A stretch of DNA of 64,000 nucleotides from Streptococcus sp. VT 162. GTDB lineage: Bacteria; Bacillota; Bacilli; Lactobacillales; Streptococcaceae. Positions 49,636 to 64,000 of this stretch are shown in pieces. The stretch spans positions 434,001 to 498,000 of the forward strand of contig CP007628.2 in NCBI GenBank assembly GCA_000688775.2. Reading direction: 5' to 3'. The translations under genes and the position numbers were made by a program. The notes beneath the pieces were generated by a model. The model was not told the DNA's origin and searched no databases. It saw nothing but the letters and a program-made list of their open reading frames with translations. The stretch's first letter is position 1, and each line of letters starts with the position of its first letter.

Positions 49636-51651
49636 ATGAATCTACATAAACCCTTGCATGTCTTGCCTGGTGTGGGGCCAAAGTCAGCAGAGAAATACGC
49701 CAAACTAGGAATTGAAAACTTGCAAGACCTTTTGCTCTACTTTCCTTTCCGTTATGAAGATTTCAAAACCAAGCAGGTGATGGAGCTGGAAGACGGAGAA
49801 AAGGCTGTTCTGTCTGGTCAGGTCGTGACTCCTGCTAGTGTCCAGTATTATGGTTTCAAGCGCAATCGCCTGCGTTTTAGCCTCAAGCAGGGAGAAGTCG
49901 TTTTTGCGGTGAATTTTTTTAACCAGCCCTATCTGGCTGATAAGATAGAGTTGGGAGCAACTCTTGCTGTCTTTGGGAAATGGGACCGTGCCAAGGCCAG
50001 TCTGACTGGGATGAAGGTTCTGGTTCAGGTGGAAGATGACCTCCAACCTGTCTATCGTCTGGCTCAGGGAATCAGTCAGGCCAGTCTGGTCAAGGTTATC
50101 AAGACAGCTTTTGATCAGGGGTTGGACCTCTTGATTGAAGAAAATCTTCCCCAGTCTTTACTTGATAAATACAAACTCATGTCCCGTTGCCAGGCTGTTC
50201 GCGCTATGCATTTTCCCAAGGATTTGGCAGAATACAAGCAGGCCCTTCGCCGTATCAAGTTTGAGGAACTCTTTTATTTCCAAATGCAATTGCAGACGCT
50301 CAAGTCTGAAAATAGAGTTCAGGGAAGCGGTCTGGTTCTGAATTGGTCTCAGGAAAAAGTGACAGCCGTTAAAGAAAATCTGCCTTTCGCCCTGACCCAA
50401 GCTCAGGAAAAGAGTTTGCGGGAAATTTTGGCTGACATGAAGTCGGACCATCACATGAATCGTCTCTTGCAAGGGGATGTGGGGAGCGGAAAAACAGTGG
50501 TCGCTGGCCTGGCCATGTTTGCGGCGGTGACGGCTGGCTATCAGGCAGCTCTCATGGTGCCAACAGAAATCCTAGCAGAGCAACACTTTGAGAGTTTACA
50601 GAACCTTTTTCCAGACTTGAAACTCGCTCTCTTGACAGGTTCCTTAAAAGCTGCAGAAAAAAGAGAAGTTTTAGAGACCATTGCCAAGGGTGAGGCTGAT
50701 TTGATTATCGGAACCCACGCTCTGATACAAGATGGGGTGGATTATGCTCGTCTTGGCTTGATTATCATCGATGAGCAGCACCGTTTTGGTGTGGGGCAAA
50801 GGCGTATTTTACGGGAAAAAGGGGACAACCCTGACGTTCTCATGATGACGGCGACACCCATTCCACGAACCTTGGCTATCACAGCCTTTGGAGATATGGA
50901 TGTTTCTATTATTGACCAGATGCCAGCAGGGCGGAAGCCTATTGTGACGCGCTGGATTAAGCATGAACAGTTGCCTCAGGTCTTGACTTGGTTAGAGGGA
51001 GAAATTCAAAAGAGTTCGCAAGCCTATGTTATCTCCCCTTTGATTGAAGAATCTGAAGCTCTGGATCTGAAAAATGCCATTGCCTTATCAGAAGAGTTGA
51101 CAGCTCATTTTGCCGGCAAGGCTGAAGTAGCTCTTCTACATGGTAAGATGAAGAGTGACGAAAAAGACCAGATCATGCAGGATTTCAAAGAGCGAAAAAC
51201 GGATATTCTGGTTTCGACAACGGTTATTGAGGTTGGGGTTAATGTTCCCAATGCTACCGTCATGATTATCATGGATGCCGATCGGTTCGGTCTCAGTCAG
51301 CTTCACCAGCTCAGGGGTCGTGTCGGTCGGGGTGACAAGCAGTCATATGCTGTTCTTGTAGCTAATCCCAAGACGGAGTCTGGGAAAGACCGCATGCGCA
51401 TCATGACAGAAACCACCAATGGATTTGTCCTTGCTGAGGAGGATTTGAAAATGCGTGGCTCTGGTGAGATTTTTGGAACCAGACAGTCAGGACTTCCAGA
51501 GTTTCAAGTGGCTGATATTATCGAAGATTTTCCGATTTTAGAAGAAGCCAGAAAGGTTGCCAGCTACATTAGTTCGATAGAAGACTGGCAAGAGGATCCA
51601 GAATGGCGCATGATTGCTCTCCATCTGGAAAAGAAAGAACATCTAGATTAA
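49636..51651 (+). CDS. recG: ATP-dependent DNA helicase RecG
   Basis: 671 aa. The N-terminal wedge/OB domain (HKPLHVLPGVGPKSAEKYAK; SGQVVTPASVQYYG) is followed by Walker A LLQGDVGSGKTVVAG near residue 282, DEQH box IIIDEQHRFGVGQRR near residue 377, and QLRGRVGRGDKQSY in the second helicase domain. It remodels stalled forks. The stop TAA is directly followed by a BOX element. Confidence 0.97.
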   Translation: MNLHKPLHVLPGVGPKSAEKYAKLGIENLQDLLLYFPFRYEDFKTKQVMELEDGEKAVLSGQVVTPASVQYYGFKRNRLRFSLKQGEVVFAVNFFNQPYLADKIELGATLAVFGKWDRAKASLTGMKVLVQVEDDLQPVYRLAQGISQASLVKVIKTAFDQGLDLLIEENLPQSLLDKYKLMSRCQAVRAMHFPKDLAEYKQALRRIKFEELFYFQMQLQTLKSENRVQGSGLVLNWSQEKVTAVKENLPFALTQAQEKSLREILADMKSDHHMNRLLQGDVGSGKTVVAGLAMFAAVTAGYQAALMVPTEILAEQHFESLQNLFPDLKLALLTGSLKAAEKREVLETIAKGEADLIIGTHALIQDGVDYARLGLIIIDEQHRFGVGQRRILREKGDNPDVLMMTATPIPRTLAITAFGDMDVSIIDQMPAGRKPIVTRWIKHEQLPQVLTWLEGEIQKSSQAYVISPLIEESEALDLKNAIALSEELTAHFAGKAEVALLHGKMKSDEKDQIMQDFKERKTDILVSTTVIEVGVNVPNATVMIIMDADRFGLSQLHQLRGRVGRGDKQSYAVLVANPKTESGKDRMRIMTETTNGFVLAEEDLKMRGSGEIFGTRQSGLPEFQVADIIEDFPILEEARKVASYISSIEDWQEDPEWRMIALHLEKKEHLD

Positions 51652-51837
51652 TACTCTTCGAAAATCTCTTCAAACCACGTCAACGTCGCCTTGGATTATA
51701 TATGTAACTGACTTCGTCAGTCTTATCTACAACCTCAAAGCAGTGCTTTGAGCAACCTGCGGCCTACAACCTCAAAGCAGTGCTTTGAGCAACCTGCGGC
51801 TAGTTTCCTTGTTTGCTCTTTGATTTTCATTGAGTAT
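51651..51837. repeat. BOX element with a duplicated internal module
   Basis: It begins ATACTCTTCGAAAATCTCTT and ends with TTGATTTTCATTGAGTAT, the boxA and boxC ends of the pneumococcal BOX repeat. Inside, a 37-bp unit (CTACAACCTCAAAGCAGTGC...) is present twice in perfect tandem at 51727-51763 and 51764-51800. The element starts at the last base of recG. Confidence 0.9.
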
Positions 51838-51920
51838 AAGCTTTCTCTAAGGAAAACTTAAGCTAGCTTTTAGGTTTGGGCCTTATACTAGAGTCATCAA
51901 AAAGAAACGAGGACTCTCAC

Positions 51921-51992
51921 ATGACTATTAAAGTAACCTACCAAAAAAAATTCCAAACCGTCAAACTAGAGAAAGGAGCTAGCACCTATTGA
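51921..51992 (+). CDS. Possible 23-residue small ORF
   Basis: Encodes MTIKVTYQKKFQTVKLEKG then ASTY. GAGG lies 8 bases before the ATG, TATACT at about 51884-51889 could be a -10, and a clean terminator follows 7 bases after the stop. It has no signal peptide or membrane segment. It looks like the N-terminal stub of a longer beta-type domain, so it may be a gene remnant, or a small expressed peptide. Confidence 0.4.
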   Translation: MTIKVTYQKKFQTVKLEKGASTY

Positions 51993-51998
51993 TACATG

Positions 51999-52025
51999 AA
52001 GAGCGGAAACGCTCTTTTTATTTTT
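51999..52025 (+). terminator. Terminator after the small ORF
   Basis: AAGAGCG-GAAA-CGCTCTT followed by TTTATTTTT. Confidence 0.8.
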
Positions 52026-52122
52026 AAAACTACTTTCAGACGATAGGTTTGAGGAAAGAGAATCTAAAATCACTTTCTATTTAGCATTCTTTCTTGCATT
52101 GCTTTCTTAGATATGCTAGAGT
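52024..52122 (+). promoter_or_regulatory. Esterase promoter with Nan-type operator
   Basis: AAACTACTTTCAG (from 52027) matches the CTGAAACTACTTTCA box of the nan promoters. CTATTTA lies at the same +53 offset (52077) as in those promoters. TTGCAT (52094-52099), 17 bp, TAGAGT (52117-52122) falls one base short of the nan promoter spacing. ATGATAGCGATTACA at 52124-52138 resembles a cre site. Confidence 0.55.
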
Positions 52123-52156
52123 TATGATAGCGATTACAAAACAAAAGGAGCATGCT

Positions 52157-53137
52157 ATGAAAAATCCAGCTTTGTTAGAAGAAATCAAGACCTATCTAGG
52201 ACGGGATGAGGTTCCAGAAGATTTTGATGCTTTCTGGGATGAAGCGGTCAAAAAAGTTTCATCTCTTCCAGCCTACCAGTTGGAGGAAAGAGATTTCCAT
52301 ATTCCTCAAGTCAAGTGCTATGAACTTACTTTTGAAGGAACCAATGAAGGCAAGGTCTATGCACGTGTCGTCCTTCCAAAGAGTGAGGAGAAGGTTCCGC
52401 TAATCTTCCATTTCCATGGGTACATGGGCCGTGGTTGGGATTGGGCTGACATGCTAGCCTATACTGTGGCTGGTTACGGTGTTGTTTCCATGGATGTGCG
52501 GGGCCAGTCGGGCTATTCGCAAGACGGCTTGCGCTCTCCACTAGGAAATACGGTGAAGGGGCATATCATCCGTGGTGCTGTGGAAGGTCGTGAGGATCTC
52601 TTTTATAAGGATGTTTATCTGGATATTTACCAGTTGATTGAAATTGTTGCCAGTCTGCCTCAGGTGGATGAAAAGCGACTTTCTAGCTATGGTGCCTCAC
52701 AAGGCGGTGCTTTAGCCCTGGTTGCAGCAGCGCTCAATCCTCGGATTCAGAAAACAGTTGCTATCTATCCCTTCTTGTCAGACTTTAGACGAGTGCTTGA
52801 GATTGGCAATACCAGTGAGGCCTATGATGAACTCTTCCGTTATTTCAAGTTCCACGATCCTTTCCATGAAACAGAGGAGGAAATCATGGCAACCCTTGCC
52901 TATATCGATGTGAAAAATCTTGCCCATCGCATTCAAGGTGAGGTCAAGATGATTACGGGCTTGGACGACGATGTTTGCTATCCTATTACCCAGTTTGCGA
53001 TTTACAACCGCCTAACTTGCGACAAGGCCTATCGCATCATGCCAGAGTATGCTCACGAAGCCATGAATGTTTTTGTCAATGACCAAGTCTATAACTGGCT
53101 CTGTGGCAGTGAGATTCCTTTTAAGTACGTAAGATAA
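52157..53137 (+). CDS. Acetyl xylan esterase/cephalosporin C deacetylase family (CE7)
   Basis: 326 aa from the ATG at 52157 (AAAGGAG upstream). The CE7 motifs are all seen: MDVRGQSG near residue 120, GASQGG nucleophile elbow near residue 185, and HE near residue 305 (YAHEAMN). It removes acetyl groups from sugars or antibiotics in the cytoplasm; there is no signal peptide. Its place beside the sialidase locus and the shared operator suggest action on O-acetylated sugars taken up with sialic acid. That link is inference. Confidence 0.88.
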   Translation: MKNPALLEEIKTYLGRDEVPEDFDAFWDEAVKKVSSLPAYQLEERDFHIPQVKCYELTFEGTNEGKVYARVVLPKSEEKVPLIFHFHGYMGRGWDWADMLAYTVAGYGVVSMDVRGQSGYSQDGLRSPLGNTVKGHIIRGAVEGREDLFYKDVYLDIYQLIEIVASLPQVDEKRLSSYGASQGGALALVAAALNPRIQKTVAIYPFLSDFRRVLEIGNTSEAYDELFRYFKFHDPFHETEEEIMATLAYIDVKNLAHRIQGEVKMITGLDDDVCYPITQFAIYNRLTCDKAYRIMPEYAHEAMNVFVNDQVYNWLCGSEIPFKYVR

Positions 53138-53143
53138 TGAATG

Positions 53144-53169
53144 AGAGAGCCCAGGAGCTCTCTTTTTTA
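53144..53169 (+). terminator. Terminator after the esterase gene
   Basis: AGAGAGC pairs with GCTCTCT, followed by TTTTT. Confidence 0.8.
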
Positions 53170-53179
53170 TGTCCAAAAC

Positions 53180-53279
53180 CTGAAAGTACTTTTAAAAAAT
53201 TTAAAATATTAAAATATTCTTAAAAGTAAAATCTATTCTGTAGGAACACAGATATAAATATAAGACTTTATTGTATAAT
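53180..53279 (+). promoter_or_regulatory. Promoter region of the sialidase gene
   Basis: CTGAAAGTACTTTTAA starts at 53180, CTATTCT at 53233 (+53) and TATAAT at 53274 (+94). The hexamer at the -35 position (GATATA) is poor, which fits a need for an activator. The leader 53280-53474 also holds TGTCTC-TTGA-GAGACA (53401-53416) and a cre-like GAAAGCGCTTTAT (53439-53451). Confidence 0.7.
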
Positions 53280-53420
53280 AAAGGAAAAGTCACTTGTGAA
53301 AGGAGGAAAAAGGCTGCCGGGTGGTTAAAAACTCGGGCTCAGCAGAAAATGGGAGAGGATTGGGAGCTCTCATTAAGTTGGATACTTTCTTGGTAAAACT
53401 TGTCTCTTGAGAGACAATAA

Positions 53421-56867
<3,447 letters not shown>

Positions 56868-56900
56868 TAAGTAAAAGCTTTTTGAGTAGGTCTCGGAAGA

Positions 56901-56932
56901 GGTAGCAGGTTTTCAAGCCTGCTATCTTTTTT
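56901..56932 (+). terminator. Terminator after nanA
   Basis: GGTAGCAGG pairs with CCTGCTATC, followed by TTTTTT. Confidence 0.85.
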
Positions 56933-56967
56933 GACGACATTCAGGTTGATTCAAAATCATAAGAAGT

Positions 56968-57067
56968 CTGAAACTACTTTCAGGATAGTCTGTTCTATAA
57001 AATAGTTTTGAAACTGAAATCTATTCTACTACAAGCTATTGAAAGCGCTTAACAAATGATATATAAT
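56968..57067 (+). promoter_or_regulatory. Promoter of nanE with operator and cre
   Basis: Perfect palindrome CTGAAA-CTAC-TTTCAG at 56968-56983, CTATTCT at 57021 (+53), TTGAAA (57039-57044), 17 bp, TATAAT (57062-57067, +94). A cre-like TTGAAAGCGCTTAACA overlaps the -35, so CcpA repression is likely. Confidence 0.82.
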
Positions 57068-57100
57068 AAGCCCATAAGAACAAGAAAGGGAGGAAAGAGG

Positions 57101-57799
57101 ATGCCACAGATCAGCAAAGAAGCCTTGATTGAACAAATCAAAGATGGAATCATTGTCTCTTGCCAGGCACTTCCTCACGAACCGCTTTATACAGAAGCGG
57201 GAGGAGTCATTCCCTTGCTAGTCAAAGCGGCTGAGCAAGGTGGAGCAGTCGGTATCCGAGCAAACAGTGTTCGTGATATCAAGGAGATCAAGGAGGTTAC
57301 GAAACTCCCGATTATCGGGATTATCAAACGTGACTATCCGCCACAGGAGCCATTCATTACAGCTACTATGAAAGAAGTGGATGAGTTGGCTGAACTAGAC
57401 ATTGAGGTCATTGCTCTGGATTGCACCAAACGTGAACGTTATGACGGTTTGGAAATCCAAGACTTTATCCGACAAGTCAAAGAAAAGTATCCACATCAAC
57501 TCTTAATGGCTGATACCAGTACCTTTGAAGAGGGTATAGCAGCAGTCGAAGCAGGGATTGATTTTGTTGGAACAACCCTATCAGGTTACACTTCTTATAG
57601 TCCAAAAGTAGATGGTCCAGACTTTGAACTGATCAAAAAACTGTGTGAAGCAGGTGTGGATGTCATCGCTGAAGGGAAAATTCATACACCAGAACAAGCC
57701 AAACAAATTCTGGAGTATGGGGTGCGAGGCATCGTTGTTGGTGGAGCGATTACTAGACCAAAAGAGATTACGGAGCGCTTTGTTGCCGGTCTTAAATAA
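57101..57799 (+). CDS. nanE: N-acetylmannosamine-6-phosphate 2-epimerase
   Basis: 232 aa TIM barrel from the ATG at 57101 (GGGAGGAAAGAGG upstream). Typical motifs are [15 protein letters not shown] near residue 12, IGIIKRDY near residue 76, ALDCTKRER near residue 106 and ADTSTFEEG near residue 137. It makes GlcNAc-6-P from ManNAc-6-P, the last special step of sialic acid breakdown. Confidence 0.96.
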
Positions 57800-57829
57800 C
57801 ACAATCTCAAAACAGAGGAGAGTGGTTGA

Positions 57830-59242
<1,413 letters not shown>

Positions 59243-59262
59243 GCACTAAGTCAGATTGATTC

Positions 59263-59301
59263 CCCCCTTTTCCCTGTGCACTACGGTGTAAGAAAAGGGG
59301 G
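59263..59301 (+). terminator. Hairpin between binding-protein and permease genes
   Basis: CCCCCTTTTC (59263-59272) pairs with GAAAAGGGGG (59292-59301), then ACTTTTGTTTG. The T-run is imperfect, so it may be a partial terminator or mRNA-stabilising end that gives more binding protein than permease. Confidence 0.65.
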
Positions 59302-59440
59302 ACTTTTGTTTGAAATGGTAGGAACTGTCACGAAATTAAAATGAAGTTCTTACATAAGCGAATCTTAAAAAATTTCATTTTGGTTTTAAAACAGTTCAAG
59401 AAAATCAAAAACTATTCTATTTGAAAGAGAGGTGCCGACT

Positions 59441-60328
59441 GTGAAAGTCAATAAAATTCGTATGCGGGAAACAGTGATTTCCTACGCTTTCCTAGCACCA
59501 GTGTTATTCTTCTTTGTGATCTTTGTCTTGGCTCCTATGATTATGGGATTCATTACAAGTTTCTTTAACTACTCCATGACTAAATTTGAGTTTGTAGGCT
59601 TTGACAACTACATTCGCATGTTTAAAGACCCTGTCTTTGTGAAGTCTTTGATCAATACCGTTATCCTGGTTATTGGATCTGTTCCGATTGTGGTTCTCTT
59701 CTCGCTCTTTGTAGCATCTCAAACCTATCATCAAAATGCCATTGCCCGTTCTTTCTATCGTTTCGTCTTCTTCCTTCCTGTAGTTACAGGTAGTGTTGCC
59801 GTAACGGTTGTATGGAAATGGATCTATGACCCCCTATCAGGGATTCTAAACTTTGTCCTTAAGTCAAGCCACATCATCAGCCAAAACATTTCTTGGCTGG
59901 GTGACAAAAACTGGGCTTTGCTAGCGATTATGATTATCCTTTTGACAACATCTGTTGGTCAACCGATTATCCTTTATATCGCTGCTATGGGGAATATTGA
60001 TAACTCACTTGTTGAAGCGGCGCGTGTTGACGGTGCGACTGAGTTTCAAGTCTTCTGGAAGATCAAATGGCCTAGCCTTCTTCCAACAACTCTTTACATC
60101 GCGATTATTACGACTATCAACTCATTCCAATGTTTCGCCTTGATTCAGTTGTTGACTTCTGGTGGTCCAAACTACTCAACAAGTACCTTGATGTACTACC
60201 TTTACGAAAAAGCCTTCCAATTGACAGAATACGGCTATGCAAATACCATCGGTGTCTTCTTGGCAGTGATGATTGCCATTGTCAGCTTTGCTCAATTCAA
60301 GATCCTCGGAAACGACGTAGAATACTAA
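59441..60328 (+). CDS. ABC sugar transporter permease 1
   Basis: 295 aa with six membrane helices. I prefer the GTG at 59441, which has AGAGAGG 8 bases upstream, over the GTG at 59432, which lies next to that site. The EAA loop is EAARVDGATEFQVFWKIKWP near residue 190. MsmF/UgpA-type permease paired with the next gene. Confidence 0.92.
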   Translation: MKVNKIRMRETVISYAFLAPVLFFFVIFVLAPMIMGFITSFFNYSMTKFEFVGFDNYIRMFKDPVFVKSLINTVILVIGSVPIVVLFSLFVASQTYHQNAIARSFYRFVFFLPVVTGSVAVTVVWKWIYDPLSGILNFVLKSSHIISQNISWLGDKNWALLAIMIILLTTSVGQPIILYIAAMGNIDNSLVEAARVDGATEFQVFWKIKWPSLLPTTLYIAIITTINSFQCFALIQLLTSGGPNYSTSTLMYYLYEKAFQLTEYGYANTIGVFLAVMIAIVSFAQFKILGNDVEY

Positions 60329-60343
60329 AGAAAGGAGACAGTT

Positions 60344-61183
60344 ATGCAACCTACACAAAAGAAACCCTTAACAGCTTTTACTGTTATCTCAACGATTATC
60401 TTGCTCTTGTTGACCGTACTGTTCATCTTTCCATTCTACTGGATCTTGACAGGGGCCTTCAAATCACAACCTGATACCATTATGATTCCACCACAGTGGT
60501 TCCCTAAAATGCCAACCATGGAGAACTTCCAACAACTCATGGTGCAAAACCCTGCTATGCAGTGGATGTGGAACTCTGTATTTATCTCACTGGTAACCAT
60601 GTTCTTAGTCTGTGCAACCTCTTCTCTAGCAGGTTATGTCTTGGCTAAAAAACGTTTCTATGGTCAGCGCATTCTCTTTGCAGTCTTTATCGCTGCCATG
60701 GCTCTTCCAAAACAAGTTGTCCTTGTACCATTGGTACGTATCGTCAACTTCATGGGAATTCACGATACTCTTTGGGCAGTTATCTTGCCTTTGATTGGAT
60801 GGCCATTTGGGGTCTTCCTTATGAAACAGTTCAGCGAAAACATCCCTACAGAATTGCTTGAATCAGCTAAAATCGACGGTTGTGGTGAGATTCGTACCTT
60901 CTGGAGCGTAGCCTTCCCTATCGTGAAACCAGGATTTGCAGCCCTTGCAATCTTTACCTTCATCAATACTTGGAACGACTACTTCATGCAGTTGGTTATG
61001 TTGACTTCACGTCAAAACTTGACTATCTCACTCGGGGTTGCGACCATGCAGGCCGAAATGGCAACCAACTATGGTTTGATCATGGCGGGTGCAGCTCTTG
61101 CAGCCGTGCCAATCGTAACGGTCTTCCTTGTCTTCCAAAAATCCTTCACTCAGGGTATTACTATGGGAGCGGTCAAAGGTTAA
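60344..61183 (+). CDS. ABC sugar transporter permease 2
   Basis: 279 aa with six helices. The EAA loop is ESAKIDGCGEIRTFWSVAFP near residue 172. MsmG/UgpE type. AAAGGAG precedes the ATG, 15 bases after permease 1. Confidence 0.93.
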   Translation: MQPTQKKPLTAFTVISTIILLLLTVLFIFPFYWILTGAFKSQPDTIMIPPQWFPKMPTMENFQQLMVQNPAMQWMWNSVFISLVTMFLVCATSSLAGYVLAKKRFYGQRILFAVFIAAMALPKQVVLVPLVRIVNFMGIHDTLWAVILPLIGWPFGVFLMKQFSENIPTELLESAKIDGCGEIRTFWSVAFPIVKPGFAALAIFTFINTWNDYFMQLVMLTSRQNLTISLGVATMQAEMATNYGLIMAGAALAAVPIVTVFLVFQKSFTQGITMGAVKG

Positions 61184-61572
61184 GAAAAGTAAATTAGTGT
61201 ATCAAGATTGCAGAAGTGGTCTTGACATGCCATGGAAATATAGAGTTATAAGTGTCTACAAAATGGAGAGTATGCAGTTACTTCGTGAAGTTTTGTCAGA
61301 CACTTATAAACTTAAGAATGAACTCTTTTCATGATACTAGTTAGAGTAGGTTCGTTTTATGGTAGCTATTTCCCGCTTTAGTGGTATCTAAGACAAGTAT
61401 CTTACGCTTATCTTAGACGGAATTTTTGAGACTGACGATGAAGGAGTGAAAGGCTCAAAAATTAGGAATGAAATTCCGAAGGAATTTGCTTCCGTCCGCA
61501 CTATTACAGGGAAATAGAGAAAGGATAATTCGAAACTGAAAAATAGTAACTATCAGAAACGAAGGAAACAGT
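61184..61572. other. Structured gene-free interval with a long palindromic element
   Basis: No ORF is convincing. Two structures are seen: a hairpin with arms of about 19 bases at 61245-61263 and 61291-61311 (GTTATAAGTGTCTACAAAA against TTTTGTCAGACACTTATAA), and an imperfect 152-bp palindrome at 61366-61517 with ends CTATTTCCC and GGGAAATAG, inner pairs TAGTG/CACTA, TCTAAGA/TCTTAGA and AATTTTTGAG/CTCAAAAATT. It may be an intergenic repeat of the RUP/SPRITE kind, but I cannot assign it to a known family. The YhcH gene's ribosome site is at its end. Confidence 0.6.
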
Positions 61573-62025
61573 ATGATTTTTGACGATTTGAAAAACATCG
61601 CCTTTTACAAGGGAATCCATCCCAATCTAGACAAGGCTATCGACTATCTCTATCAGCACCGTAAGGATTCTTTTGAACTCGGTAAGTATGAGATTGACGG
61701 GGACAAGGTCTTTCTAGTTGTTCAGGAAAATGTCCTCAACCAAGCTGAAAATGATCAATTTGAGCATCATAAGAACTATGCAGACTTGCATTTGCTGGTA
61801 GAAGGACATGAATATTCGAGCTACGGTTCACGTATCAAAGACGAAGCGGTAGCATTCGATGAAGCGAGTGACATTGGCTTTGTCCATTGTCATGAACGCT
61901 ACCCACTCTTGTTGGGTTATCACAATTTTGCGATTTTCTTCCCAGGAGAACCGCACCAGCCAAATGGCTATGCAGGTATGGAAGAGAAGGTTCGCAAATA
62001 TCTCTTTAAAATTTTGATTGATTAA
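61573..62025 (+). CDS. YhcH/YjgK/YiaL family protein
   Basis: 150 aa, cupin-like DUF386 domain. FEHHKNYADLHLLVEGHEYS near residue 57 carries the His/Glu metal ligands, and PGEPHQPNG is near residue 124. In enterobacteria YhcH (NanQ) is linked to handling of sialic acid anomers, and it lies in nan loci. Its place here fits. Confidence 0.9.
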   Translation: MIFDDLKNIAFYKGIHPNLDKAIDYLYQHRKDSFELGKYEIDGDKVFLVVQENVLNQAENDQFEHHKNYADLHLLVEGHEYSSYGSRIKDEAVAFDEASDIGFVHCHERYPLLLGYHNFAIFFPGEPHQPNGYAGMEEKVRKYLFKILID

Positions 62026-62045
62026 AAGAATCAGGAGGAGCAAAC

Positions 62046-62690
62046 ATGGCACAAAAAGGAGTAAGCCTTATTAAGGCAGCATTTGACACAGATAACTTTC
62101 TCATGCGTTTCAGTGAGAAGGTCTTGGATATCGTCACAGTCAATCTTCTTTTTGTCGTCTCTTGTTTGCCCATTGTGACGATTGGAGTGGCGAAAATCAG
62201 CCTTTACGAGACCATGTTTGAGATTAAGAGAAGCAGACGAGTTCCAGTTTTCAGAACCTATCTAAGAGCTTTCAAGCAAAATCTGAAACTGGGGCTTCAG
62301 TTAGGTTTGCTAGAGTTGGGCATTGTGTCATTAAGCCTTCTAGACCTCTATCTCTTCTGGGGCCAGACAGCTTTACCTTTCCAGATTGTGAAAGCAATTT
62401 GTTTGGGGATTCTCATCTTCCTCACTCTCGTGATGTTGGCTAGTTATCCCATCGCTGCGCGCTATGATTTATCTTGGAAAGAAGTGCTGCAAAAAGGGCT
62501 TATCTTGGCAAGTTTTAACTTTCCATGGTTCTTCCTCATGTTAGCTATTCTCTTTCTCATAGTGATGGTTCTTTATCTATCCGCCTTCACTCTCCTTTTG
62601 GGTGGGTCAGCCTTTATCCTCTTTGGTTTTGGTTTGCTGGTCTTTCTCCAAGCAGGATTGATGGAGAAAATTTTCGCCAAATACCAGTAG
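62046..62690 (+). CDS. DUF624/YesL family membrane protein
   Basis: 214 aa, about five membrane helices. The N-terminal FLMRFSEKVLDIVTVNLLFV is the DUF624 signature. The family is found next to sugar ABC transporters (YesL type) and its role is unknown. AGGAGGAG precedes the ATG, 20 bases after the YhcH gene. Confidence 0.87.
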   Translation: MAQKGVSLIKAAFDTDNFLMRFSEKVLDIVTVNLLFVVSCLPIVTIGVAKISLYETMFEIKRSRRVPVFRTYLRAFKQNLKLGLQLGLLELGIVSLSLLDLYLFWGQTALPFQIVKAICLGILIFLTLVMLASYPIAARYDLSWKEVLQKGLILASFNFPWFFLMLAILFLIVMVLYLSAFTLLLGGSAFILFGFGLLVFLQAGLMEKIFAKYQ

Positions 62691-62702
62691 GATGACTAGT
62701 TT

Positions 62703-62802
62703 CTGAAACTACTTTCAATCGTTACAGTTTCTAAAATACAAGTAGAAACTAAAATCTAAGTGTATACAAGATATTGAAAGCGATTTTCACAAGGTGTATA
62801 CT
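62703..62802 (+). promoter_or_regulatory. Promoter of the sialic acid lyase gene
   Basis: CTGAAACTACTTTCAA at 62703, CTAAGTG at 62756 (+53), TTGAAA (62774-62779), 17 bp, TATACT (62797-62802, +94). A cre-like TTGAAAGCGATTTTCA overlaps the -35. Layout the same as the nanE promoter. Confidence 0.82.
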
Positions 62803-62860
62803 AAACTTGTAAAAATAGAACTGCTCTCAGCAGAAAAAAAGAAATCTTAGGAGAAAATCT

Positions 62861-63778
62861 ATGTCAGATTTGAAAAAATACGAAGGTGTCATTCCAGCCT
62901 TCTACGCATGTTATGATGATCAAGGAGAAGTCAGTCCAGAGCGTACGCGCGACTTGGTCCAATACTTCATTGATAAGGGTGTTCAAGGTCTCTATGTCAA
63001 TGGTTCTTCTGGTGAATGTATCTACCAAAGTGTGGCAGATCGCAAGTTGATTTTGGAAGAAGTCATGGCAGTTGCCAAGGGCAAATTGACTATCATCGCT
63101 CACGTAGCTTGCAACAATACCAAAGATAGTATGGAACTTGCTCGCCACGCAGAAAGCTTGGGAGTAGATGCCATTGCAACGATTCCACCGATTTACTTCC
63201 GTTTGCCAGAATACTCAGTTGCTAAATACTGGAACGATATCAGTTCTGCAGCTCCAAACACAGACTACGTTATCTACAACATTCCTCAATTAGCAGGTGT
63301 TGCTTTGACTCCAAGTCTCTACACTGAAATGTTGAAGAATCCACGTGTTATCGGTGTTAAGAACTCTTCTATGCCAGTTCAAGATATCCAAACCTTTGTC
63401 AGCCTTGGTGGAGAAGACCACATCGTCTTTAATGGTCCAGATGAACAGTTCCTAGGTGGACGGCTCATGGGTGCTAAAGCTGGTATCGGTGGTACTTACG
63501 GTGCGATGCCAGAACTCTTCTTGAAACTCAATGAGTTGATTGCTGAGAAAGACTTGGAAACAGCGCGTGAATTGCAATACGCTATCAACGCAATCATTGG
63601 TAAATTGACTGCTGCACATGGAAATATGTACGGTGTCATCAAAGAAGTCTTGAAAATCAATGAAGGCTTGAACATTGGTTCAGTTCGTTCACCATTGACG
63701 CCAGTGACTGAAGAAGATCGACCAGTTGTAGAAGCAGCAGCGCAATTGATTCGTGAAACCAAGGAGCGCTTCCTCTAA
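62861..63778 (+). CDS. N-acetylneuraminate lyase
   Basis: 305 aa DapA-superfamily TIM barrel that splits sialic acid into ManNAc and pyruvate. YVNGSSGECIYQS near residue 46 carries the GSSGE pyruvate-binding motif. The catalytic Tyr is in DYVIYNIPQLAGV near residue 137 and the Schiff-base Lys in VIGVKNSS near residue 165. AGGAGAAAATCT precedes the ATG. Usually also called nanA, a symbol I leave to the sialidase here. Confidence 0.95.
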   Translation: MSDLKKYEGVIPAFYACYDDQGEVSPERTRDLVQYFIDKGVQGLYVNGSSGECIYQSVADRKLILEEVMAVAKGKLTIIAHVACNNTKDSMELARHAESLGVDAIATIPPIYFRLPEYSVAKYWNDISSAAPNTDYVIYNIPQLAGVALTPSLYTEMLKNPRVIGVKNSSMPVQDIQTFVSLGGEDHIVFNGPDEQFLGGRLMGAKAGIGGTYGAMPELFLKLNELIAEKDLETARELQYAINAIIGKLTAAHGNMYGVIKEVLKINEGLNIGSVRSPLTPVTEEDRPVVEAAAQLIRETKERFL

Positions 63779-63795
63779 TCCATAAGGAGGTATTT

Positions 63796-64000
63796 ATGAC
63801 ACACTACGTTGCAATTGATATCGGTGGAACCAATATCAAATATGGTTTGATTGACCAAGAAGGCCAACTTGTTGAATCGCATGAAATGCCAACCGAGGCG
63901 CATAAGGGTGGACCTCATATCTTACAAAAGACAAAAGATATCGTAGCCAGCTATTTAGAAAAAGGCCCAGTAGCAGGTGTTGCCATTTCTTCTGCTGGGA
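63796..64000 (+). CDS. nanK: ROK family kinase, N-terminal part (probable ManNAc kinase)
   Basis: 68 codons before the right edge. It starts MTHYVAIDIGGTNIKYGLID, with the ATP-binding DIGGTNIK of ROK sugar kinases. AAGGAGG precedes the ATG, 17 bases after the lyase gene. It should phosphorylate ManNAc to feed NanE; the substrate is inferred from context. Confidence 0.88.
   Translation, partial: MTHYVAIDIGGTNIKYGLIDQEGQLVESHEMPTEAHKGGPHILQKTKDIVASYLEKGPVAGVAISSAG

Follow-up and report, generated by a model that had tools for sequence, protein, structure and literature searches.

The genes for an acetyl esterase (axe), a sialidase, the epimerase nanE and N-acetylneuraminate lyase, all found within 64,000 nucleotides of the 2.04-Mb genome of Streptococcus sp. 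VT 162 (positions 434001-498000; this whole stretch is called here the window), are preceded by promoters that share a two-block operator. To judge from sequence comparison, all four are probably activated by NanR, a regulator of the RpiR type, and have one design, so that Axe would be made together with sialidase, epimerase and lyase and would most likely deacetylate sialic acids after their import. The membership of axe in the NanR regulon is likely for this species and for many of its relatives. The addition of a deacetylating enzyme to the sialic acid regulon suggests that these bacteria expect to receive O-acetylated sialic acids from mucus.

The operator layout is common to the four promoters and consists of a 16-mer near-palindrome (block 1), a 24-bp spacer, and a weaker 16-mer at +40 (block 2; offsets are counted from the first base of block 1, and all coordinates are those of the window, forward strand, unless a locus is named). 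At axe, block 1 is TTAAAACTACTTTCAG (52024..52039) and block 2 is CTAAAATCACTTTCTA (52064..52079). The corresponding elements are CTGAAAGTACTTTTAA (53180..53195) and TTAAAAGTAAAATCTA (53220..53235) at the sialidase gene, CTGAAACTACTTTCAG (56968..56983) and TTGAAACTGAAATCTA (57008..57023) at nanE, and CTGAAACTACTTTCAA (62703..62718) and TAGAAACTAAAATCTA (62743..62758) at the lyase gene. Block 1 was recognized in the sequence by core match at axe, nanE and lyase, with conservation in orthologues as additional evidence at axe, and by alignment at the sialidase; every block 2 was placed by alignment on the box and by the joint score. An earlier note on this DNA had described boxes at 52024, 53180, 56968 and 62703, and a CTATTCT/CTAAGTG block at +53 from each (52077, 53233, 57021 and 62756). 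All these positions are found in the sequence, and the block at +53 is real, but the meaningful unit is the 16-mer at +40, the last three bases of which start the block that had been noticed.

Scored jointly for half-sites, the four promoters have their maximum at +40 (27.1, with 4.1 at the next best offset); none of 5000 dinucleotide shuffles reached this value, the null maximum being 18.4. The 14-bp core, TGAAACTACTTTCA, is matched exactly at nanE and lyase, with one mismatch at axe and with two at the sialidase. When at most one mismatch is allowed, the core is found in 6 places in the whole genome, compared to 3 for a reversed-pattern control; these are nanE, lyase, axe and three sites within reading frames. 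The latter three have matrix scores of 16.1, 18.6 and 15.3, as opposed to 22.7-25.5 for block 1 of the four promoters, and nothing resembling block 2 is seen at +40 from them. With up to two mismatches, there are 42 places genome-wide and 50 for the control. As the pattern is then no commoner than its control, lone sites of such quality, for example the one at the sialidase, carry little meaning without block 2, and the case for the operator rests on the pairing of the blocks, on their positions in promoters and on conservation.

The regulator of the four promoters is almost certainly the RpiR-type NanR that the earlier note had proposed, with its gene outside the window. Such a gene is located 1.9 kb beyond the window end, on the opposite strand (L009:15911-16762). 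Its product matches over the full length the solved protein chains 8v4v, 8tx9 and 8txl (named phosphosugar-binding or MurR/RpiR regulators), and is identical to the 8v4v chain at 250 of 283 positions and at 40 of 41 positions in residues 30-70. A preprint of December 2025 on pneumococcal NanR (PMC12713135) gives an 18-bp near-palindromic consensus, TCTGAAACTACTTTCAAA, which is matched by block 1 of the four promoters, and lists Arg56 and Arg67 among the DNA contacts of the protein; both arginines are retained in the NanR discussed here. From names, length and similarity, we infer that the three solved chains are the SpNanR of the preprint, the table of structures naming no species.

The core promoters stand at nearly constant distance from the blocks. 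The -10 hexamer begins at exactly +94 at the sialidase (TATAAT, 53274..53279), nanE (TATAAT, 57062..57067) and lyase (TATACT, 62797..62802) genes, as the earlier note had it, and its assertion that the axe -10 is one base nearer also agrees with the sequence. At axe, TAGAGT (52117-52122, +93) is TG-extended, TGCTAGAGT (52114..52122), and lies 17 bp downstream of a -35 element, TTGCAT (52094..52099), present in many orthologues. TATGCT (52112) and TATGAT (52123) are better-looking candidates for the axe -10, overruled by the extended -10 at +93, which is conserved in orthologues. The -35 element of both nanE and lyase is TTGAAA, contained within sites that resemble the catabolite-responsive element (cre) bound by CcpA (57039..57054 and 62774..62789, respectively). 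A cre-like CcpA site of axe, TGATAGCGATTACA (52125..52138), recognized by eye against the consensus, covers the predicted start site, and a similar sequence is seen in the S. parasanguinis group. The sialidase promoter (53236-53279), unlike those of nanE and lyase, has by eye no consensus -35 and no cre at the -35 position, and may be more fully dependent on the activator.

The same spacing holds across species. In promoters with intact block 1, the window included, block 2 was sought at offsets from +34 to +47 and lies at +40 or +41 in all 33 sialidase, 41 of 42 nanE and all 12 lyase promoters; genes whose match began away from the first residue gave no row, and rows in which the best upstream site scored below 15 were left out (4 of 37 for sialidase, i.e., L019, L034, L037 and L061; 0 of 42 for nanE; and 4 of 16 for lyase, i.e., L047 and L087-L089). 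The distance from block 2 to the -10 is 54 bp in 30/33, 38/42 and 12/12 of these promoters, respectively. Block 2 is at +41 in eight of them, and in six of the eight the -10 shifts along to +95, so the distance between block 2 and the promoter looks the more rigid of the two. For axe, the count was made on the loci classed as intact; of these 47 promoters, window included, 44 have an extended -10 at +93 or +94 by a loose search pattern. Scored with the full matrix, the axe and sialidase promoters have their highest value at +40 (z 4.6 and z 3.5, respectively). A spacing rule thus emerges for four promoter classes in many species, with 40-41 bp between block 1 and block 2 and usually 53-54 bp from block 2 to the -10, which extends to four classes a model that rested on two pneumococcal promoters.

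Conservation of the axe operator was followed in the best 80 among 161 confirmed axe loci, every one with a Streptococcus label, where block 1 was considered intact at a matrix score of 15 or more. The closest esterase to that of the window in this set is from S. oralis subsp. tigurinus (98%). Intact block 1 is located 129-141 bp upstream of the axe start codon in 46 of the 80 loci. In ten, an insertion separates block 2 from the -35, with block 1 intact in five and decayed in five; seven have decayed block 1 without an insertion; and 17, all of the S. parasanguinis/australis type and making up the whole of that group (17/17), have no operator (best score 2.3). Block 2 is likewise absent from the S. 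parasanguinis-type axe promoters that lack block 1. All 17 of these genomes encode a NanR homologue with 58-61% identity, in one case reading through a stop. The search for sialidase, nanE and lyase beside axe gave no match in the 17 loci, two of which end at most 2.1 kb from the axe start. Among the other 63 loci, 56 have a match to sialidase, nanE or lyase, and the remaining seven comprise six shortened by contig ends and L024, which has 11 kb of flanking sequence and no such match. In 16 axe promoters whose spacers all differ, a set for which the window and the five loci with insertion and intact block 1 were eligible, the information content averages 1.74 bits per base over block 1 and 1.27 over block 2, compared to 0.46 over the spacer.

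A NanR-like operator followed by TATAAT is found downstream of axe in some genomes of the S. parasanguinis type (L083:11288, L082:11297, L080:11274 and L078:11274). The next open reading frame of at least 120 amino acids in L083 starts about 470 bp beyond that operator and is recombinase-like; the operator may be the relic of a lost gene.

The insertions that split the axe promoter appear to be BOX-like repeats. In L011, labelled S. pneumoniae 19F, about 150 bp are inserted between CTTTCTATT and the -35 region, and this insert matches in inverted orientation a repeat of the window, 51649-51838 (98% over 115 and 97% over 75 bases). The window repeat, itself BOX-like, lies between recG and axe and has the opposite orientation to the copies that interrupt the axe promoter of other species. 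The ten inserts are of two sizes, about 150 bp in four loci and about 105 bp in six, a difference of 45 bp, and have the ends ATACTC...GAGTAT. Both features are consistent with a BOX element that either contains or lacks boxB. BOX elements are known for modular design, variable number of boxB and effects on neighbouring genes (PMC3049150).

With the insertion in place, the operator is moved away from the core promoter by about 106 or 152 bp. An activator dependent on fixed spacing should thereby be uncoupled, and axe has apparently been uncoupled from NanR in some lineages. Decay of block 1 is seen in 5 of 10 loci with the insertion and in 7 of 53 without it (Fisher p 0.016), a difference that is not relied upon, as the losses are not independent; L013, L029 and L035 have an upstream replacement in common with L015, L017, L018 and L025. 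The insertion counts are drawn from the 80 loci only, because a genus-wide search for the BOX junction (3 mismatches) gave matches in 80 of 284 genomes, including numerous copies in a different sequence context. Two axe loci carry the S. pneumoniae label, L011 with a split promoter and L034 with an intact one. It is conceivable, though less likely than not, that the esterase belongs to the core targets of NanR in commensal streptococci of the mitis group, and that BOX repeats inserted between its operator and promoter have disconnected it in some lineages, at least one pneumococcus-type genome among them. The weak phenotype of axe in the pneumococcal model strain would then be due to rewiring by a mobile repeat and not to the irrelevance of the enzyme. 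Natural insertions that part the operator from the promoter are now at hand.

The sequences, spacing, conservation and presence of NanR computed here can be combined with what is published for pneumococcus, that is, NanR binding, N-acetylmannosamine 6-phosphate (ManNAc-6P) as the ligand, the tetramer, activation of nanE and siaA, and mucin deacetylation by Axe, into the following putative mechanism. A NanR dimer would occupy block 1, at about -107 to -92 from the predicted start. Catabolism of sialic acid would give rise to ManNAc-6P, with which NanR would form tetramers, and the second DNA-binding unit of the tetramer would sit 40 bp further downstream, on block 2 (about -67 to -52). There, beside the site of the polymerase alpha subunit, NanR would recruit the polymerase. 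CcpA would repress nanE and lyase through the cre over the -35, and axe through the cre-like site at its start. Cytoplasmic Axe would then remove O-acetyl groups from imported sialic acids, such as N-acetyl-9-O-acetylneuraminic acid (Neu5,9Ac2), ahead of the lyase.

Several observations weigh against parts of this account, and they are best taken together with the alternatives. The whole block-1 matrix scores block 2 low (5.4 at axe, -1.5 at the sialidase, -5.6 at nanE and -5.6 at lyase), so block 2 has to be viewed as half a site and not as a second full site. In nanE and lyase the full matrix ranks the cre at +71 above +40. The left half alone places axe block 2 at +40/+41 in 28 of 47 promoters and at +34 in the other 19, because the conserved half of axe block 2 is the right one (CTTTCTA); its left half is weak in the window, scoring 3.7 compared to 7.7-8.0 in the other three promoters. 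It is conceivable, even if the chances seem to us clearly against it, that block 1 is the only NanR site, block 2 being an UP-element-like or some other feature, and that activation proceeds from block 1 alone or by looping. Besides its poor matrix score, block 2 of the sialidase, nanE and lyase promoters has a common terminal AAATCTA that a NanR half-site would not need, and the preprint describes the half-site as degenerate, offers bridging as one hypothesis and considers looping too (PMC12713135). On the other side, the sialidase, nanE and lyase classes all have a half-site similar to block 1 at the one offset of +40/+41, the right half of axe block 2 resembles the right half of block 1, and block 2 is missing where block 1 is missing too, in the S. 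parasanguinis-type axe promoters. Occupancy of both blocks by NanR is the reading preferred here.

The place of action of the esterase is the second issue. The AXE1 domain (PF05448, E 5e-145) spans residues 1-316 of the 326 residues of Axe, the nucleophile motif GxSxG is present as GASQG, no signal peptide is apparent, and the best-scoring solved relative is 3fcy; the 19F-labelled genome has an orthologue with 97% identity. Recombinant pneumococcal Axe (SPD_1506) releases acetate from bovine mucin and raises the yield of the sialidase NanA in vitro, and esterase activity is found in culture supernatant (PMC5352144). The idea of the earlier note that the enzyme acts on O-acetyl sugars released with sialic acid is in this form already in print, and the data would suit an extracellular esterase that trims O-acetyl groups of mucin so that the sialidase can cut, a role that we consider unlikely. 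According to the same paper, pneumococcal Axe has no signal peptide and is intracellular, and deletion of axe in strain D39 has no measurable phenotype and leaves sialic acid release unchanged; the lack of a measurable phenotype counts against our own account as well. In five loci (L030, L047, L087, L088 and L089), axe adjoins nanE and no sialidase match lies between the two genes, an arrangement that favours action on imported sugars. Expression of axe is 6.5-fold higher in mouse nasopharynx than in blood (PMC5352144).

The least probable alternative, which we find quite unlikely, is that the axe operator is an inherited relic and axe is run in practice by CcpA alone via the cre-like site: block 1 is decayed (7) or cut off by a BOX-like insertion (10) in 17 of the 63 loci outside the S. 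parasanguinis/australis group, so that the link of NanR to axe is not essential, promoters devoid of the NanR site still have the cre-like site, and axe is up only 2-fold on mucin versus glucose in D39, which CcpA alone could explain (PMC5352144), but 46 of 80 loci keep block 1 in place, and both blocks are conserved next to a diverged spacer, like which a relic would have drifted.

The gene order in the region is as follows. A terminator-like hairpin (51998..52017) is found just 5' of the axe operator, followed by the axe promoter, axe (52157..53137), another terminator-like hairpin (53143..53164), the sialidase promoter, the gene for an LPXTG sialidase (53454..56867), the nanE promoter and nanE (57101..57799). 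Then come ATP-binding cassette (ABC) transporter genes, yhcH, a DUF624 gene, the lyase promoter and the lyase gene, of the DHDPS family (62861..63778); past the window end are nanK, a methyltransferase-like open reading frame and, on the opposite strand, the RpiR gene. The sialidase, nanE and lyase genes were identified by domain matches, axe as a CE7/AXE1 member by its Pfam match; ABC transporter genes and nanK were named from translations and from gene order in print, and the methyltransferase-like frame from its translation. The hairpins that bound axe on both sides come from a consensus scan only, which gave three within 51600-53500, compared to 1.7 +/- 1.4 in shuffles. An Rfam scan of 51600-64000 gave two matches, both under gathering scores. 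A partial match to Streptococcus sRNA 8 (RF02616; 35 bits, gathering score 72) is seen at 61415-61495, between the permease and yhcH genes. A table in PMC6722419 lists SP_1694, acetyl xylan esterase, with two zeros in four frequency columns; if the zero columns are those of S. mitis and S. oralis, this is in conflict with the highly similar orthologues found here, and is perhaps a matter of locus tags.

The two-block design is known in outline, since the preprint already proposes, for pneumococcal nanE and siaA, that a NanR tetramer stabilised by ManNAc-6P bridges block 1 and, about 23 bp further down, a degenerate half-site adjoining the site of the polymerase alpha subunit (PMC12713135). The suggestion of an activator bound at both blocks, made in the earlier note, has this model in its favour, with the second block redefined as the 16-mer at +40. 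The pneumococcal nan operon-I and siaA promoters are like those of the window in having NanR, the 18-bp near-palindrome, the downstream half-site and, at nanE, the cre over the -35. The lyase promoter is different: according to the preprint it is without a half-site, and the operon-II site is divergent, whereas a half-site is found at +40 in the window and at +41 in the 19F-labelled genome. In the latter, the lyase operator (L090 7412) has AAGAAACTAAAATCTA as block 2 at +41, plus a -10. The 19F-labelled genome also has a further operator downstream of siaA (C1:206351; L091 10150, reverse strand), with block 2 TTGAAACTAAATTCCA at +40, plus a -10. The 'cryptic site 4' of the preprint might be the axe operator, but its description as 'downstream of the siaA operon' suits C1:206351 better.

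The main text of PMC12713135 contains no word starting 'esterase', 'axe1' or 'cah', so axe is absent from it under those names, and the main text of PMC5352144 has no 'NanR', the regulation of Axe by NanR not being considered there. No report placing axe under NanR was found in the passages seen of the literature on the esterase together with NanR, sialic acid or locus tags. Several published systems are nevertheless close to the one described here. The Axe of Kahya et al. 2017, SPD_1506, is the orthologous CE7 esterase (PMC5352144). Gualdi 2012 includes the acetyl xylan esterase among the genes of the nanAB locus, marks a promoter upstream of it, and reports that ManNAc induces genes of the locus (PMC3509027). 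In a review, Vimr 2013, streptococcal nan clusters are drawn with Axe, and unpublished Neu5,9Ac2 esterase activity is stated for the streptococcal homologues (PMC3658417).

The remaining comparison is with E. coli. NanR of E. coli acts as a repressor and belongs to a different family, and the esterase NanS is not of the AXE1/CE7 family to which the window esterase belongs. For the latter reason, the word 'homologous' in PMC3658417 is doubtful. In its regulation, NanS is a parallel: it is a sialate O-acetylesterase within the NanR sialoregulon, made in concert with the catabolism of sialic acid (PMC3658417), as is proposed here for axe.

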